Origin: Bacteroidia bacterium
GTDB taxonomy: Bacteria > Bacteroidota > Bacteroidia > Flavobacteriales > Flavobacteriaceae
Length of the DNA stretch: 64,000 nucleotides
Reading direction: 5' to 3'
Assembly (NCBI GenBank): GCA_030427735.1
Contig: JAUIBP010000005.1
Span: 1 to 64,000 of the forward strand
Position numbers and translations under genes: made by a program
Notes under the pieces: generated by a model
The model's database searches: none
What the model was told of the DNA's origin: nothing
What the model saw: the letters and a program-made list of their open reading frames with translations, nothing else
Shown: positions 1-4,402 of the stretch, piece after piece
How the letters are laid out: each line of letters opens with the position of its first letter
Position numbering within the stretch: the stretch's first letter is position 1

Positions 1-809
1 ATAAACTGCCCCCTTTCATTTTCAGTAAAAAAACGTCTTTCGAAATCAAGCAACGTAAAAAAACACTTTATAAATACAATTATCCTAAAATAAAAAAGAT
101 ACTGTGTGTCTCCGAAGCAACTAAAAGCGTTTCAGAAAAAGCAATTACAGACCACAGCAAGCTACTTACCATTTATCATGGCACCAACTTAAGAACAAAA
201 AGTAGTGAAACAAGTTTCCAGCTACGAGAAAAACTTAATATCGAGAACCATAAATTAATTGTCGGAAACATTGCAAACCATATAAGGGCCAAACATCTGG
301 ACACCTTTATAGATGTAGCCGATAGAATTATTAATAAGGAAAAAAACACTAATTTCTTTTTTGTACAGATAGGTACTTTTACCGAACGCACACAAGCATT
401 TATAGACCGTATTAACGCACTTAATTTATCGAACCATGTCAAGTTTTTAGGGTATACACCTAACGCTTCAAATTTCATCCCGCAATTCGACATCTCTTTA
501 ATGACGTCGCAAAGTGAAGGTATTCCTCAGTTTATTTACGAATCGATGTACCATAAAACTCCCGTTGTAAGTACTAATGTAGGCGGTATTCCAGAAATTA
601 TCCAGCACGAAAATAATGGCTTATTAACCGAGCCATACGACGATAAAACACTGACGGAATACATTTTTAAAATCGCCGAAGATTCTAATTTAAAAACCCA
701 ATTCGTAAATCAGGCCCACAAAACCCTTATTAATACTTTTACAACAACCCAAATGGCTCAAAAAACCCTAGAAGTTTATCAAAATGTTTTAGAAGAGTCT
801 CTAAACTAA
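1..809 (+). CDS. Glycosyltransferase family 4-type, C-terminal part (5' end outside window)
   Basis: An open frame runs from base 3 to the stop at 807-809, giving 268 residues, so the gene begins upstream of the window. The visible part is the C-terminal Rossmann half of a GT-B glycosyltransferase. It has the sugar-nucleotide binding stretch SEGIPQFIYESM, with two glutamates seven residues apart (the E-x7-E motif of retaining GT4 enzymes), followed by PVVSTNVGGIPEII. Such enzymes transfer a sugar from a nucleotide donor onto a glycan or lipid acceptor on the cytoplasmic side of the membrane. The acceptor cannot be told from sequence. An internal ATG at 501 is not the real start, because the homology extends well upstream of it. 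There is no terminator before the next gene. Confidence 0.85.
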   Translation, partial: KLPPFIFSKKTSFEIKQRKKTLYKYNYPKIKKILCVSEATKSVSEKAITDHSKLLTIYHGTNLRTKSSETSFQLREKLNIENHKLIVGNIANHIRAKHLDTFIDVADRIINKEKNTNFFFVQIGTFTERTQAFIDRINALNLSNHVKFLGYTPNASNFIPQFDISLMTSQSEGIPQFIYESMYHKTPVVSTNVGGIPEIIQHENNGLLTEPYDDKTLTEYIFKIAEDSNLKTQFVNQAHKTLINTFTTTQMAQKTLEVYQNVLEESLN

Positions 810-886
810 AACCCTTTTCCATAAAACAACTAGCTGTTAAATTTCTGTTTCACCTTTTTACAAATAGATCTTAGAACAATAATAAT

Positions 887-894
887 TAAATTTG
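887..894 (+). promoter_or_regulatory. Bacteroidota -7 promoter element for tsaC
   Basis: The octamer TAAATTTG matches the Bacteroidota housekeeping -7 consensus TAnnTTTG and is followed by C. It lies 29 bases before the tsaC ATG. No clear -33 TTG box is visible at the usual spacing. Confidence 0.5.
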
Positions 895-923
895 CATCTT
901 GTATTAATCAGGTATAAACAATT

Positions 924-1484
924 ATGCAAAACGAAATCTCTAATGCCCTAAAAGTTCTAAAAGACGGCGGACTTATACTATACCCAACAGACACCGTTTG
1001 GGGTATTGGCTGCGATGCTACTAATCCAGAGGCTGTAAAAAAAATTTTTCAACTTAAACAACGCGAAGACAGCAAAGCCCTTATTTGTTTAGTGGCAGAC
1101 GACCGCATGCTAAAAAAGTATGTAAAAAAAATTCCTGAAGCTGCTTTTAGCATTTTAGATATTACCGAAGAACCCATTACCATTATTTACGACGAACCTC
1201 AAAATTTAGCTTCCAATTTAATTGCCGAAGACAATACCATTGCTATACGTATTCCCGACAACGATTTTTGTTTTCAACTGTTACGCAGGTTTAATGGCGC
1301 CATTGTCTCTACCTCAGCAAATATTAGTGGTTTCCCAACGCCAAAAAGCTTTAAAGAAATAGCACCAGAGATTTTAAAAGGTGTAGACTATGTCGTAAAT
1401 TTGCACCACGAAAAAATAAACACAAAACCGTCGTCTATTATAAAACTAAGTAACGATGGCATTGTTAAAGTGATAAGAGCTTAA
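924..1484 (+). CDS. tsaC: L-threonylcarbamoyladenylate synthase (YrdC/TsaC type)
   Basis: This cytoplasmic enzyme makes threonylcarbamoyl-AMP from threonine, bicarbonate and ATP. It is the first step of the t6A37 modification of ANN-decoding tRNAs, and TsaB, TsaD and TsaE complete the pathway elsewhere in the genome. The 186-residue protein is a single YrdC domain. Visible are the N-terminal GGLILYPTDTVWGIGCDA strand-loop, the basic K-x-R segment (KQREDSKAL) and the C-terminal TSANISG motif carrying the Ser-x-Asn pair. It lacks the C-terminal extension of long Sua5 proteins. The ATG at 924 sits at the expected family start. The gene has its own promoter-like element and is followed 54 bases later by the GxxExxY cassette. 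Confidence 0.95.
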   Translation: MQNEISNALKVLKDGGLILYPTDTVWGIGCDATNPEAVKKIFQLKQREDSKALICLVADDRMLKKYVKKIPEAAFSILDITEEPITIIYDEPQNLASNLIAEDNTIAIRIPDNDFCFQLLRRFNGAIVSTSANISGFPTPKSFKEIAPEILKGVDYVVNLHHEKINTKPSSIIKLSNDGIVKVIRA

Positions 1485-1487
1485 ATA

Positions 1488-1933
1488 GCCACAAATACAC
1501 GAATAATTGTATTTGATATAGCAAAAACCATATTAAAATGTCGAAAATTATTTACAAAGACGAAAGCTATACGATTATTGGTGTATTATTTGAAGTTTAC
1601 AATAATTTAGGAAGTGGTTTTTCCGAAATTGTTTATAAAGATGCTATTGAATATGAGTTTAAAACACAAAACATTCCATTTTTAAGAGAAAAAGAGTATT
1701 TAGTAAATTATAAAGACACTGTTTTACAACATAGATTTTATGCCGATTTTGTTGTTTTCGATAAGATTATTTTAGAAATTAAATCGGTAGATTCGCTAAA
1801 CGATAAACATACTGCTCAATGCTTAAATTATTTAAAAGTATCTAGCTGCAAATTATCTATACTTGCTAATTTCCATAAAAATTTTCTAGATCATAAACGA
1901 ATAGTTTTATAATAACATTTGTGCATTCGTGGC
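1488..1933. mobile_element. Inverted-repeat cassette carrying the GxxExxY gene
   Basis: The 18-base left arm (1488-1505, GCCACAAATACACGAATA) and the right arm (1916-1933, CATTTGTGCATTCGTGGC) are inverted copies with 14 of 18 bases matching. All four differences are transitions. They enclose exactly the GxxExxY gene and begin 3 bases after the tsaC stop. No transposase is present. If mobile, it would need to be moved in trans. Arms with this base pattern resemble palindromic intergenic repeats of flavobacteria, but I could not check copy number. Confidence 0.5.
1538..1912 (+). CDS. GxxExxY family protein (PD-(D/E)XK nuclease-like)
   Basis: A 124-residue protein with the family signature G-x-x-E-x-x-Y seen as GFSEIVYKDAIEYEF near residues 28-42. 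The C-terminal half has a nuclease-like core: D at YADFVVFDKIILEIK (an acidic residue followed by E-x-K), then a conserved LNYLK segment. The family is placed in the PD-(D/E)XK nuclease superfamily, but its physiological substrate is unknown. There is no signal peptide or membrane helix. The gene lies between tsaC and the CCA-type nucleotidyltransferase and is enclosed by 18-base inverted repeats, which suggests it arrived as a cassette. A nuclease activity is inferred from the fold only. Confidence 0.85.
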   Translation: MSKIIYKDESYTIIGVLFEVYNNLGSGFSEIVYKDAIEYEFKTQNIPFLREKEYLVNYKDTVLQHRFYADFVVFDKIILEIKSVDSLNDKHTAQCLNYLKVSSCKLSILANFHKNFLDHKRIVL

Positions 1934-1950
1934 AAAAAGATGTTTAAAAA

Positions 1951-3375
1951 ATGAATTACAAAGACGCCTTACAACATCCCATTTTCAAAATTATCTCGCA
2001 AGCAGCTAAAGAGCTTCAAATAGACAGCTATGTTATTGGTGGCTTTGTTCGCGATTTTATTTTAAACCGCGGTACTGCCAAAGATATCGATATTGTTGCC
2101 GTAGGTAGCGGTATTGCCTTAGCCAAACAGGTGGCCAAAAACTTACCAAAATCGCCTAAAGTACAAGTATTCAAAACCTATGGCACTGCCATGCTTCGTT
2201 ATAAAGACATAGAAATTGAATTTGTTGGAGCACGCAAAGAATCGTATAACGAAAACAGCCGTAATCCGGTAGTCGAAAACGGCACTTTGGAAGACGACCA
2301 AAACCGCCGCGACTTTACCATAAACGCATTGGCTCTTAATTTAAATGAAAACGCTTTTGGCGATTTACTAGATCCGTTTAATGGAATTACAGATTTAGAA
2401 AACAAAATTATTCGTACGCCATTAAATCCAGACATTACGTATAGCGACGATCCGTTACGTATGATGCGTGCTATTAGATTTGCCACACAGCTTAACTTTA
2501 ACATAGAAAGCGAGTCGCTACAAGCCATCGCCAGAAACAACAAACGCATTACCATAATTACCAAAGAACGCATTGTCGTAGAACTCAATAAAATTTTGGA
2601 AAGCGACACGCCGTCTATTGGTTTTTTACTGTTGGAGCAAACTGGCTTGTTAGACATTATTCTGCCTGAATTAACAGCATTAAAAGGCATAGACGAAGTT
2701 GAAGGGCAACGCCACAAAGACAATTTTTATCACACACTAGAGGTGGTCGATAATATTGCAAAAAACACGAACAATTTATGGTTACGCTGGGCAGCACTAC
2801 TTCATGATATTGGTAAAGCGCCTACAAAAAAATTCAACAAAAAAATAGGATGGACGTTTCATGGGCATGAGTTTGAAGGCTCTAAAATGACCTATCACTT
2901 GTTTAAACGCTTAAAAATGCCATTAAACGACAAGATGAAATTTGTTCAGAAAATGGTATTAATGAGTTCTCGCCCCATAGTTCTGGCACAAGATATCGTA
3001 ACCGATTCGGCCGTAAGACGTTTGGTATTCGATGCGGGAGATGCGGTAGAAGACCTTATGACTTTGTGCGAAGCAGACATCACCACTAAAAATCCTAAAA
3101 AATTTAAAAAATACCATAACAATTTTAAAATTGTACGCGATAAAATTGTTGAAGTGGAAGAACGCGACCATATACGTAACTTTCAACCCCCAATTTCTGG
3201 CGAAGAAATTATGCAAACCTTTAATTTAAAACCTTCCAAAGCGATAGGTATTATTAAAGAACGCATTAAAGAAGCCATTCTTGAAGGCGAAATTCCAAAT
3301 GAATTTGAAGCTGCTCACGCACTAATGCTTAAAGAAGGTGAGCGATTAGGGTTATCTGTTAGTCCGCGCACGTAA
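1951..3375 (+). CDS. cca: CCA tRNA nucleotidyltransferase / poly(A) polymerase family protein with HD domain
   Basis: A class II nucleotidyltransferase of 474 residues that adds or repairs the 3' CCA of tRNA. It has the nucleotidyltransferase head with GGFVRD at residues 30-35 and the metal-binding D-x-D (DIDIV) at about 45-47. The RRDFTINALALNL segment and the DDPLRMMRAIRFA segment typical of the family follow. A C-terminal HD domain has LLHDIGK at about residue 283-289. In families with this HD domain the protein may also have phosphatase or phosphodiesterase activity. Separating CCA-adding from poly(A) polymerase activity is not possible by eye. It ends 10 bases before heme A synthase, suggesting co-transcription. 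Confidence 0.9.
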   Translation: MNYKDALQHPIFKIISQAAKELQIDSYVIGGFVRDFILNRGTAKDIDIVAVGSGIALAKQVAKNLPKSPKVQVFKTYGTAMLRYKDIEIEFVGARKESYNENSRNPVVENGTLEDDQNRRDFTINALALNLNENAFGDLLDPFNGITDLENKIIRTPLNPDITYSDDPLRMMRAIRFATQLNFNIESESLQAIARNNKRITIITKERIVVELNKILESDTPSIGFLLLEQTGLLDIILPELTALKGIDEVEGQRHKDNFYHTLEVVDNIAKNTNNLWLRWAALLHDIGKAPTKKFNKKIGWTFHGHEFEGSKMTYHLFKRLKMPLNDKMKFVQKMVLMSSRPIVLAQDIVTDSAVRRLVFDAGDAVEDLMTLCEADITTKNPKKFKKYHNNFKIVRDKIVEVEERDHIRNFQPPISGEEIMQTFNLKPSKAIGIIKERIKEAILEGEIPNEFEAAHALMLKEGERLGLSVSPRT

Positions 3376-3385
3376 TTATAGAACA

Positions 3386-4402
3386 ATGAAAACAAAAGAC
3401 AATAAAAAAGTAATCTACTGGCTGCTTACCGGATGCTTTTTAATATTTATAATGGTAATTGTTGGTGGTATTACACGACTTACAGATTCTGGTTTATCGA
3501 TCTCTAATTACAAACTTATTACAGGCACCATCCCGCCTTTAAACGACACCGAATGGCAAGAGGCCTTCCAGTTATACCAACAACACCCAGAATTTAAACA
3601 TTATAATTCGCATTTTACATTAAGCGATTTTAAAAGTATTTATTTTTGGGAATGGCTTCACCGTTTAATAGGCCGAGTTATAGGTTTGGTATTCTTTTTT
3701 CCTTTTGTATATTTTTTAATCACCAAACAACTTACAAAATCAACTATAAAAAAGAGCTTAATTCTTATGGCGCTTGGTGCTTTTCAGGGATTTTTAGGCT
3801 GGTATATGGTAAAAAGCGGATTAGTAGAGATGCCCGATGTAAGCCACTATCGCCTAGCCGCACATTTAACCACAGCATTTTTAACCTTTGCCGCAACCCT
3901 TTGGGTGGCTTTAGATTTAATTTACCCCAACACAAAACCAGCCAATACCACGATGAGGAATCTTATAACTGTTGGCTACATCGCTCTAGTTTTTCAAATA
4001 ATTTACGGAGCCTTTGTTGCTGGGTTAAAAGCTGGTTTGCTACACAACCATTGGCCTTTAATGAATGAAGGTAAATTTATTCACGAATCGGCTTATATTG
4101 TAGAGCCTTTTTATAAAAATTGGATAGAAAACCCTAGTGGCATTCAATTTATACACAGAACATTTGCTTATGTAGTTGTAGCACTAATACTATACATTTA
4201 CTATAAATCCCGCCAATTTAAGTTAACACCAAACCAACAAAAAGGAATTAATTCGCTGGTTATTCTGGTTGGCATACAATTTTTATTAGGTGTTTTTACC
4301 ATTTTATTGTACGTCCCGATCTGGCTTGGAATACTTCACCAAATAGGCGCTTTTTTCTTGTTAACCGCCATGACATTTACTTTACATCGCTTCAGTAAAT
4401 AA
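3386..4402 (+). CDS. ctaA: Heme A synthase (COX15/CtaA family)
   Basis: A polytopic inner-membrane enzyme that oxidises the C8 methyl of heme O to make heme A for cytochrome c oxidase. The 338 residues hold about eight hydrophobic helices in two four-helix bundles. The N-terminal GGITRLTDSGLSI motif is characteristic. Histidines expected to bind heme or cofactor are seen at EWLHRLIGR, AAHLTTAFL, FIHRTFAY and LHQIGAFF. The C-terminal half repeats the layout of the N-terminal half, as in the COX15 type. It lies directly after the cca gene. Cytochrome oxidase and heme O synthase genes are not in this window. Confidence 0.93.
   Translation: MKTKDNKKVIYWLLTGCFLIFIMVIVGGITRLTDSGLSISNYKLITGTIPPLNDTEWQEAFQLYQQHPEFKHYNSHFTLSDFKSIYFWEWLHRLIGRVIGLVFFFPFVYFLITKQLTKSTIKKSLILMALGAFQGFLGWYMVKSGLVEMPDVSHYRLAAHLTTAFLTFAATLWVALDLIYPNTKPANTTMRNLITVGYIALVFQIIYGAFVAGLKAGLLHNHWPLMNEGKFIHESAYIVEPFYKNWIENPSGIQFIHRTFAYVVVALILYIYYKSRQFKLTPNQQKGINSLVILVGIQFLLGVFTILLYVPIWLGILHQIGAFFLLTAMTFTLHRFSK

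Follow-up and report, generated by a model that had tools for sequence, protein, structure and literature searches.

A small gene of the GxxExxY family, enclosed by two inverted copies of an 18-base arm, lies between tsaC and the gene of the CCA-adding enzyme in the 64,000-nucleotide stretch of DNA analysed here (the window), which raises the question of whether gene and arms form one unit and, if they do, what the encoded protein has to do with its own repeats. We know of no agreed role for GxxExxY proteins. In the accessible portions of open-access full texts, GxxExxY, PF13366 and TIGR04256 are named in passing in work on other subjects, with no mention of arms there; six of the repeat strings were absent from open-access full text, a body that leaves most subscription papers outside its scope, so that a description elsewhere is possible.

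The arrangement in the window (Table 1) bears out what had been predicted from its letters: the two arms are identical at 14 of 18 positions, the four mismatches are all A/G, and three bases (ATA) separate the tsaC stop codon from the left arm. Each arm is made of two tandem 8-mers, CACAAATA followed by CACGAATA on the left and CACGAATG followed by CACAAATG on the right, of the common form CACRAATN. By eye, the leader motif resembles ATTTGACATAG, which is found in the loop of solo hairpins elsewhere in the genome. The arms are preceded by TAAATA on the left and by TCTTTTT on the right (minus strand), and GTAG is absent. No known RNA matched above its gathering score in positions 1-4000 of the window, nor did any rRNA. 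The restriction of the arm differences to transitions is a local detail of this cassette, the 90 genes with alignable arms having 287 transitions and 400 transversions between their arms.

Table 1. Features of the GxxExxY cassette and its neighbours (positions in the window)
Feature	Positions	Strand	Remarks
tsaC-type upstream neighbour, TIGR00057 L-threonylcarbamoyladenylate synthase	924..1484	+	stop TAA 1482-1484
Left arm GCCACAAATACACGAATA	1488..1505	+	tandem 8-mer pair preceded by GC
Leader, left arm to start codon	1506..1537	+	contains ATTTGATATAG
GxxExxY gene, 124 aa, PD-(D/E)XK nuclease fold (predicted)	1538..1912	+	PF13366, TIGR04256
Right arm, GCCACGAATGCACAAATG as reverse complement	1916..1933	-	starts 3 bases past GxxExxY stop codon
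CCA tRNA nucleotidyltransferase, downstream neighbour	1951..3375	+	

The family assignment also held, since the gene qualifies, at full length and above cut-off, as a member of both PF13366 (PDDEXK_3; E 1.2e-34) and TIGR04256 (E 9.3e-38; 129.2 bits against a cut-off of 35), two models that describe the protein alone, without arms. It has the GxxExxY motif (G27, E30, Y33) together with residues of the PD-(D/E)XK type (D70, E80-x-K82, Q94), and G25, G27, E30, D70, E80, K82, Q94, Y98, N111 and F112 are invariant among 70 sequences. A search by sequence found no solved relatives. The AlphaFold2 model (mean pLDDT 95) matches best, among solved structures, SSO0001 (4ic1; Z 9.9, 98 residues, rmsd 3.2; next Z 7.7), which we take to be a Cas4 nuclease; chains titled Cas4 also match with lower scores, and archaeal Hjc and type II enzymes score about 6-7, where the resemblance may be no more than a common fold. 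The protein is thus predicted to have a PD-(D/E)XK nuclease fold of the Cas4-like kind. From the structure alignment L158 and L194 were left out because of internal stops, and L155 and L191 were not carried in. Cas4 proteins have conserved cysteines for an Fe-S cluster, whereas the GxxExxY protein is shorter, its two cysteines both fall in columns that are unconserved in the family, and no cas gene directly adjoins it. A part in defence was set aside, PADLOC returning only Cas4b at E 0.012, and phage cargo found little support (two relatives in the viral collection by peptide pattern, and weak PHROGs matches only).

Are such arms a general property of GxxExxY genes? Matches to the family occur in 72 of 298 genomes of the bacterial family (71 of them over the cut-off), with one to six each, in a list that takes in fragments and decayed copies. 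The general build of the arms is an inverted array of degenerate 8-10-mers with the core CRCNRAK, and a double unit was accordingly scored as CRCNRAK-(1-3)-CRCNRAK within 160 nt of the gene, inverted on the downstream side. The sample comprised 68 genes from 67 of the 72 loci, with L054, L055, L076, L103 and L110 being without a gene call. A double unit was found upstream of 45 of the 68 genes, downstream of 48 and on both sides of 38, compared with 5 and 11 of 680 control windows from the same loci, by strand. The pattern had been composed after viewing 31 of the loci, and the held-out loci give the cleaner figure (upstream 23, downstream 26 and both 20 of 39). Neither arm was detected by the pattern in 13 of the 68 genes; in most of these, inspection by eye finds other units, which are weak in L102 and L116. 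Additionally, the wider sample, formed by 75 of the best 80 named loci (five being too near contig ends), spans several bacterial phyla and one archaeal bin, its non-Bacteroidota records being mostly metagenome bins in which single phylum assignments may be wrong; here a double unit stands upstream in 35, downstream in 48 and on both sides in 26, compared with 8 and 15 of 750 controls. Double units on the wrong strand also exceed the controls (11 and 10 of 68 in the family, 12 and 20 of 75 in the wider sample of the best 80 loci), in part because some flanks hold whole hairpins.

The same conclusion is reached without any pattern. When each upstream flank was aligned with its own inverted downstream flank, 38 of 141 genes scored at least 18, with about one expected from swapped flanks and none observed among 705 pseudo-genes (7 of the 148 genes were left out for short or N-containing flanks). 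In direct orientation 21 of the 141 genes reached this score, and several of them have a copy of an entire hairpin at each side of the ORF: the 98-bp copies of L064 and L083 abut the start and stop codons within a base, and L085 has the order hairpin, gene, hairpin, gene, hairpin. Relatives on plasmids (8 and 6 records) are all below 60% identity, which excludes them as a source of near-identical empty sites. Among eight plasmid relatives whose flanks were read, those of Bacteroides finegoldii and Bernardetia have clear inverted arms, the Fusobacteriota and Prevotella records have flanks with direct repeats, Sphingomonas has an arm upstream only (by eye), and Treponema, Persicobacter and Gemmatirosa have weak arms or none, the last of these with a broken frame as called. 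What other GxxExxY genes share with the cassette is thus the build of the arms.

The letters of the repeat unit differ between genes in a regular manner. Classified by unit letters 5-7, 107 of 149 genes fall into AAG (41), GAG (39), GAT (16) and AAT (11), the remaining 42 being left out for want of a clear class. Of 97 genes, 80 have one and the same class upstream and downstream (mean 29 and maximum 44 in 2000 shuffles), and on the protein tree (129 columns; 66 of 146 inner branches open) the class requires 20 changes, compared with a shuffled mean of 52 and a minimum of 43 in 200 shuffles. These comparisons show, at the level of sequence, that unit and protein change together, each lineage apparently with its own version of the repeat, and that gene and arms go together. 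Since joint inheritance as one unit would yield an equal signal, the fit of class to tree shows linkage and not binding.

The arms are not confined to the cassette. In the 64 kb of the window the degenerate pattern GCCACRAATNCACRAAT matches exactly at the two cassette arms only (none in 100 shuffles), and at 3 mismatches it finds 3 sites where 2.1 are expected, i.e. chance level; over the whole genome 3 mismatches give 209 sites versus 165 for the reversed pattern, so that only exact and 1-mismatch sites are informative. The 3.64-Mb assembly holds 62 exact sites, both cassette arms included, and a single GxxExxY gene. In the genome stretches that were read, 43 convergent arm pairs of 50-61 bp (at most 3 mismatches per arm) and 11 single sites (at most 1 mismatch, both cassette arms among them) were found, and none of the 43 hairpins lies inside an ORF of at least 100 aa. 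Folded as single-stranded DNA, one hairpin of this genome gives z = -7.0, and two of genome G031 give -9.2 and -9.6.

About 38 of the 43 hairpins, by reading, sit within all or part of a dispersed element of about 205 bp, whose left half is present in 34 copies (at most 3 mismatches). A search of the window's own genome (G000) for Y1 genes revealed a Y1 transposase gene (PF01797) outside the window, at G000:C18:41202-41561 (L332), with a copy of the 205-bp element directly upstream and the right end of the element directly downstream; the centre of the upstream copy is a GxxExxY-type hairpin. Judged by these flanks the transposase is best read as RAYT-like, and the 205-bp copies would be its REP-type units, enclosing a GxxExxY-type hairpin. 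The original description of a cassette free of transposase is thus correct for the cassette itself, whose gene belongs to PF13366, and not for the genome. Because most hairpins lie in the RAYT-linked element, their number is no proof that the GxxExxY protein moves them, and as evidence of its mobility most of them were dropped. Over the contigs, the left halves of the element are oriented 30 forward and 4 reverse, which is odd if contig orientation is arbitrary. At G000:C12:402757-402814 (L033) the 58-bp hairpin is inverted relative to its composite flanks, unlike in the other composites as read.

Among the 298 genomes, the exact arm CCACRAATNCACRAAT, derived from the window and its genome, occurs in 65, compared with 22 hits in 8 genomes for the reversed pattern, and genomes with GxxExxY genes have matching arms more often: 38 of the 65 arm-bearing genomes have a GxxExxY match versus 34 of the 233 others. 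With at least 4 arms, a threshold that exceeds the cassette's own two, the figures are 22 of 25 versus 50 of 273 (Fisher p ~2e-12, kinship being ignored and the rows being mostly one per genus). The 27 arm-bearing genomes without a match include G100 (13 arms), G101 (8) and G282 (5). Of the 298 genomes, 6 contain the strict hairpin and 5 of these have a GxxExxY gene; the two richest, G000 (17) and G031 (7), both carry the gene with the same arms. G131, G213 and G011 have window-type hairpins, yet the GxxExxY genes read there have other units. A GAT-type hairpin pattern occurs in 3 of the 298 genomes, each with a GAT-type gene at most 9 kb away, and G238 (L111) has 13 listed arms in both orientations within 1.5 kb around its gene and 18 in the genome. 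Five bare hairpins of G031 have their arms in common, and their loops and flanks differ; simple copying of an element does not explain hairpins that share arms only.

Whether the cassette has moved is best judged at its junctions. In the 110 nt ahead of the CCA gene in 28 relatives, the cassette was seen by eye in the window and G012 only, and a later reading found it also in G264 and G031. Five genus mates and G011 (L124-L129) have no GxxExxY gene between tsaC and cca, in a spacer of about 80-95 nt by eye. This spacer holds, also by eye, a different inverted repeat of the AAATTTCAAGCACTAAATTCCAAA type in the place of the cassette. Identity to the window for tsaC, CCA and GxxExxY is 81/86/79 in G264, 62/77/73 in G012 and 63/77/65 in G031, i.e. 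the divergence of the GxxExxY gene roughly tracks that of tsaC and cca in the four genera, so that one old insertion followed by losses also fits. The empty junctions of the genus mates and the abundance of arms elsewhere agree with the original prediction of a mobile or self-maintaining cassette, of which the part that makes gene and arms one unit stood, and movement at this site was left with two fitting accounts.

The junction between map and a methyltransferase gene holds 22 of the 149 genes (GAG 14, AAT 7, GAT 1), and the presence of such distant lineages suggests repeated insertion there. In 60 genomes searched, 30 such junctions were read, with ORFs named by eye: 16 are tight (<50 nt), 2 hold an intact and 2 a decayed GxxExxY gene, 4 a cupin-like ORF, 1 a cupin remnant, 2 another ORF, 2 an HNH-like ORF, and 1 is a contig end. 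The HNH/NUMOD4-like ORFs (by eye) are those of L290 (G012) and L300 (G035), at a junction that is a GxxExxY site elsewhere. Both neighbours are co-directed with the GxxExxY gene in 100 of 128 cases, the background being 22 of 44 for gene triples of the window and 159 of 222 for neighbouring pairs elsewhere in the loci. A target-site duplication was not seen, the empty sites being too diverged to read one. Patchy junctions, decayed copies and hairpin-ORF-hairpin loci suggest that the cassette may have been mobile.

The reading that we prefer, at what we regard as even chances, is that the arms serve the nuclease as DNA sites of its own and that arm, GxxExxY gene and inverted arm form a selfish, mostly site-bound cassette. 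We infer that the cassette operates in three steps: its units are recognised, the DNA is cut close to the arms, and repair makes the copy. On this view the protein would be a small DNA endonuclease of defined sequence specificity, built on a Cas4-like core; it would bind the tandem units in its own arms, either in duplex form or extruded as a hairpin, and would cut the arms internally or alongside. When the broken arm is repaired or replicated, the cassette, or a gene-less hairpin, would be copied to nearby or homologous intergenic sites. The preferred target would lie behind a stop codon within an operon, where the gene could be expressed by read-through, and the cassette would be gained, would then decay and would finally be lost. 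Its working mode may approach that of a REPtron or a homing cassette, with the nuclease replacing the HUH enzyme. As a genome holds dozens of arms, free cutting would be lethal: an enzyme attacking all of them would fragment the genome that encodes it, a point that counts against this reading unless cutting is limited to a special state of the DNA, for example an extruded hairpin or the single strand at a fork. The arm controls, flank scores, class agreement, tree fit, duplicated hairpins and co-occurrence count in favour of the cassette, as do the classes and decay at the map junction, the co-direction, the fold with its motif and the lack of a G.U bias (see below). Against it count the RAYT-linked hairpins, the arm-bearing genomes without a GxxExxY match, the differing units of G131, G213 and G011, the wrong-strand excess, the fit to an old insertion, the lack of a readable target-site duplication, the family genes in which the pattern detects neither arm and the differing loops and flanks in G031.

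Alternatively, the arms could be operators, with a GxxExxY protein that serves the cell in repair or in immunity against foreign DNA, units that regulate its own expression, and solo hairpins that act as genome marks or terminators. We consider this unlikely. Arms near start and stop codons, a unit class that tracks the protein, a gene co-directed with its neighbours, and invariant catalytic residues that suggest long purifying selection would all be expected; so would a bias to the upstream side, and yet arms occur downstream no less often than upstream (48 versus 45 of 68 in the family, 48 versus 35 of the 75 from the best 80 loci), some loci have entire hairpins in duplicate around the ORF, and the gene is patchy, with decaying copies.

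It is still less probable that the hairpins are part of the RAYT/REP system, with a GxxExxY gene caught between two such hairpins. Most hairpins of this genome do lie inside the element that frames the Y1 transposase gene, but GxxExxY genes of many phyla share the arm build, the unit follows GxxExxY phylogeny, and the five G031 hairpins that were read have unrelated flanks; with a Y1 search that covered the window's own genome, this account may still apply to others. The cassette system shares several features with a REPtron. The accessible text on REPtrons (TnpA_REP/RAYT) describes a single gene with many dispersed short palindromes, some beside the gene, and GTAG as the tetranucleotide that usually precedes a REP palindrome (PMC8266576). 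Here, one GxxExxY gene accompanies 43 hairpins, most of them in the RAYT-linked element, and local clustering is seen in some genomes; the differences are that the GxxExxY enzyme is of the predicted PD-(D/E)XK type and not HUH/Y1, that Y1 genes lie elsewhere in the genome, and that the cassette arms are tandem 8-10-mers without GTAG.

An element acting in RNA, like the intervening sequence (IVS) of 23S rRNA, in which the arms would pair in the transcript and be cut by RNase III with the ORF as a passenger, we regard as improbable to a similar degree. The anatomy is the same, a small ORF within terminal inverted repeats and with tandem short repeats adjoining it, as far as the available part of a report on the Coxiella IVS and its S23p ORF goes (PMC4990558). 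Strong co-direction with the neighbours would fit as well, and TIGR02436 genes of the window's own genus have the same flank build; the IVS protein presumably belongs to TIGR02436. The cassette, however, lies outside rRNA, between protein genes, it encodes an unrelated protein, and its nuclease motif is invariant, unlike that of a decaying passenger. Moreover, the sense-strand arm differences in the 90 genes comprise 132 that are G.U-compatible and 155 that are not; this lack of a G.U bias speaks against an RNA hairpin under sense-strand selection and favours a DNA site over an RNA hairpin. Chance or AT-rich low-complexity similarity, for which only the 3-mismatch count in the window speaks, has a negligible probability and is refuted by the shuffles and control windows, in line with the low flank swaps and the 8 versus 65 of 298 genomes for the reversed arm.

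Homing endonucleases of the PD-(D/E)XK fold are free-standing or intron-encoded. The proposed cassette resembles them, by its occupancy pattern alone, in that a nuclease gene stands at the same junction in several genera, with empty and decayed sites; it differs in that no intron or intein was seen at the cassette and that the predicted target is not evidently split. If gene and repeats are linked as proposed, the GxxExxY protein gains a testable substrate and a class of short intergenic repeats gains an owner, and a REPtron-like unit of repeat and enzyme may have arisen with a nuclease instead of an HUH transposase.

A broader form of the cassette reading, which we offer as a tentative and rather doubtful extension, is that GxxExxY is the enzyme of a new and very widespread class of minimal elements, an Fe-S-free Cas4-like nuclease that would recognise lineage-specific tandem 8-10-mers in inverted arms and spread both the cassette and gene-less hairpins. 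TIGR02436 genes would show this architecture again, with an unrelated protein and different units. If true, arms of this design would be a solution of general use, and a large part of the short intergenic repeats in such genomes would have an owner. The TIGR02436 (four-helix-bundle) loci of the window's own genus (L253-L269) reach an inverted flank score of at least 14 in 9 of 17 cases, up to 26.5, with direct scores of at most 9; the best inverted scores are those of L263, L269 and L264. On either side these genes are flanked by tandem 8-10-mers in inverted arrays, whose units (GTTAGTTGT, TTATGAATTATGAG and GTCGGTTGTCGG) differ from those of GxxExxY genes.
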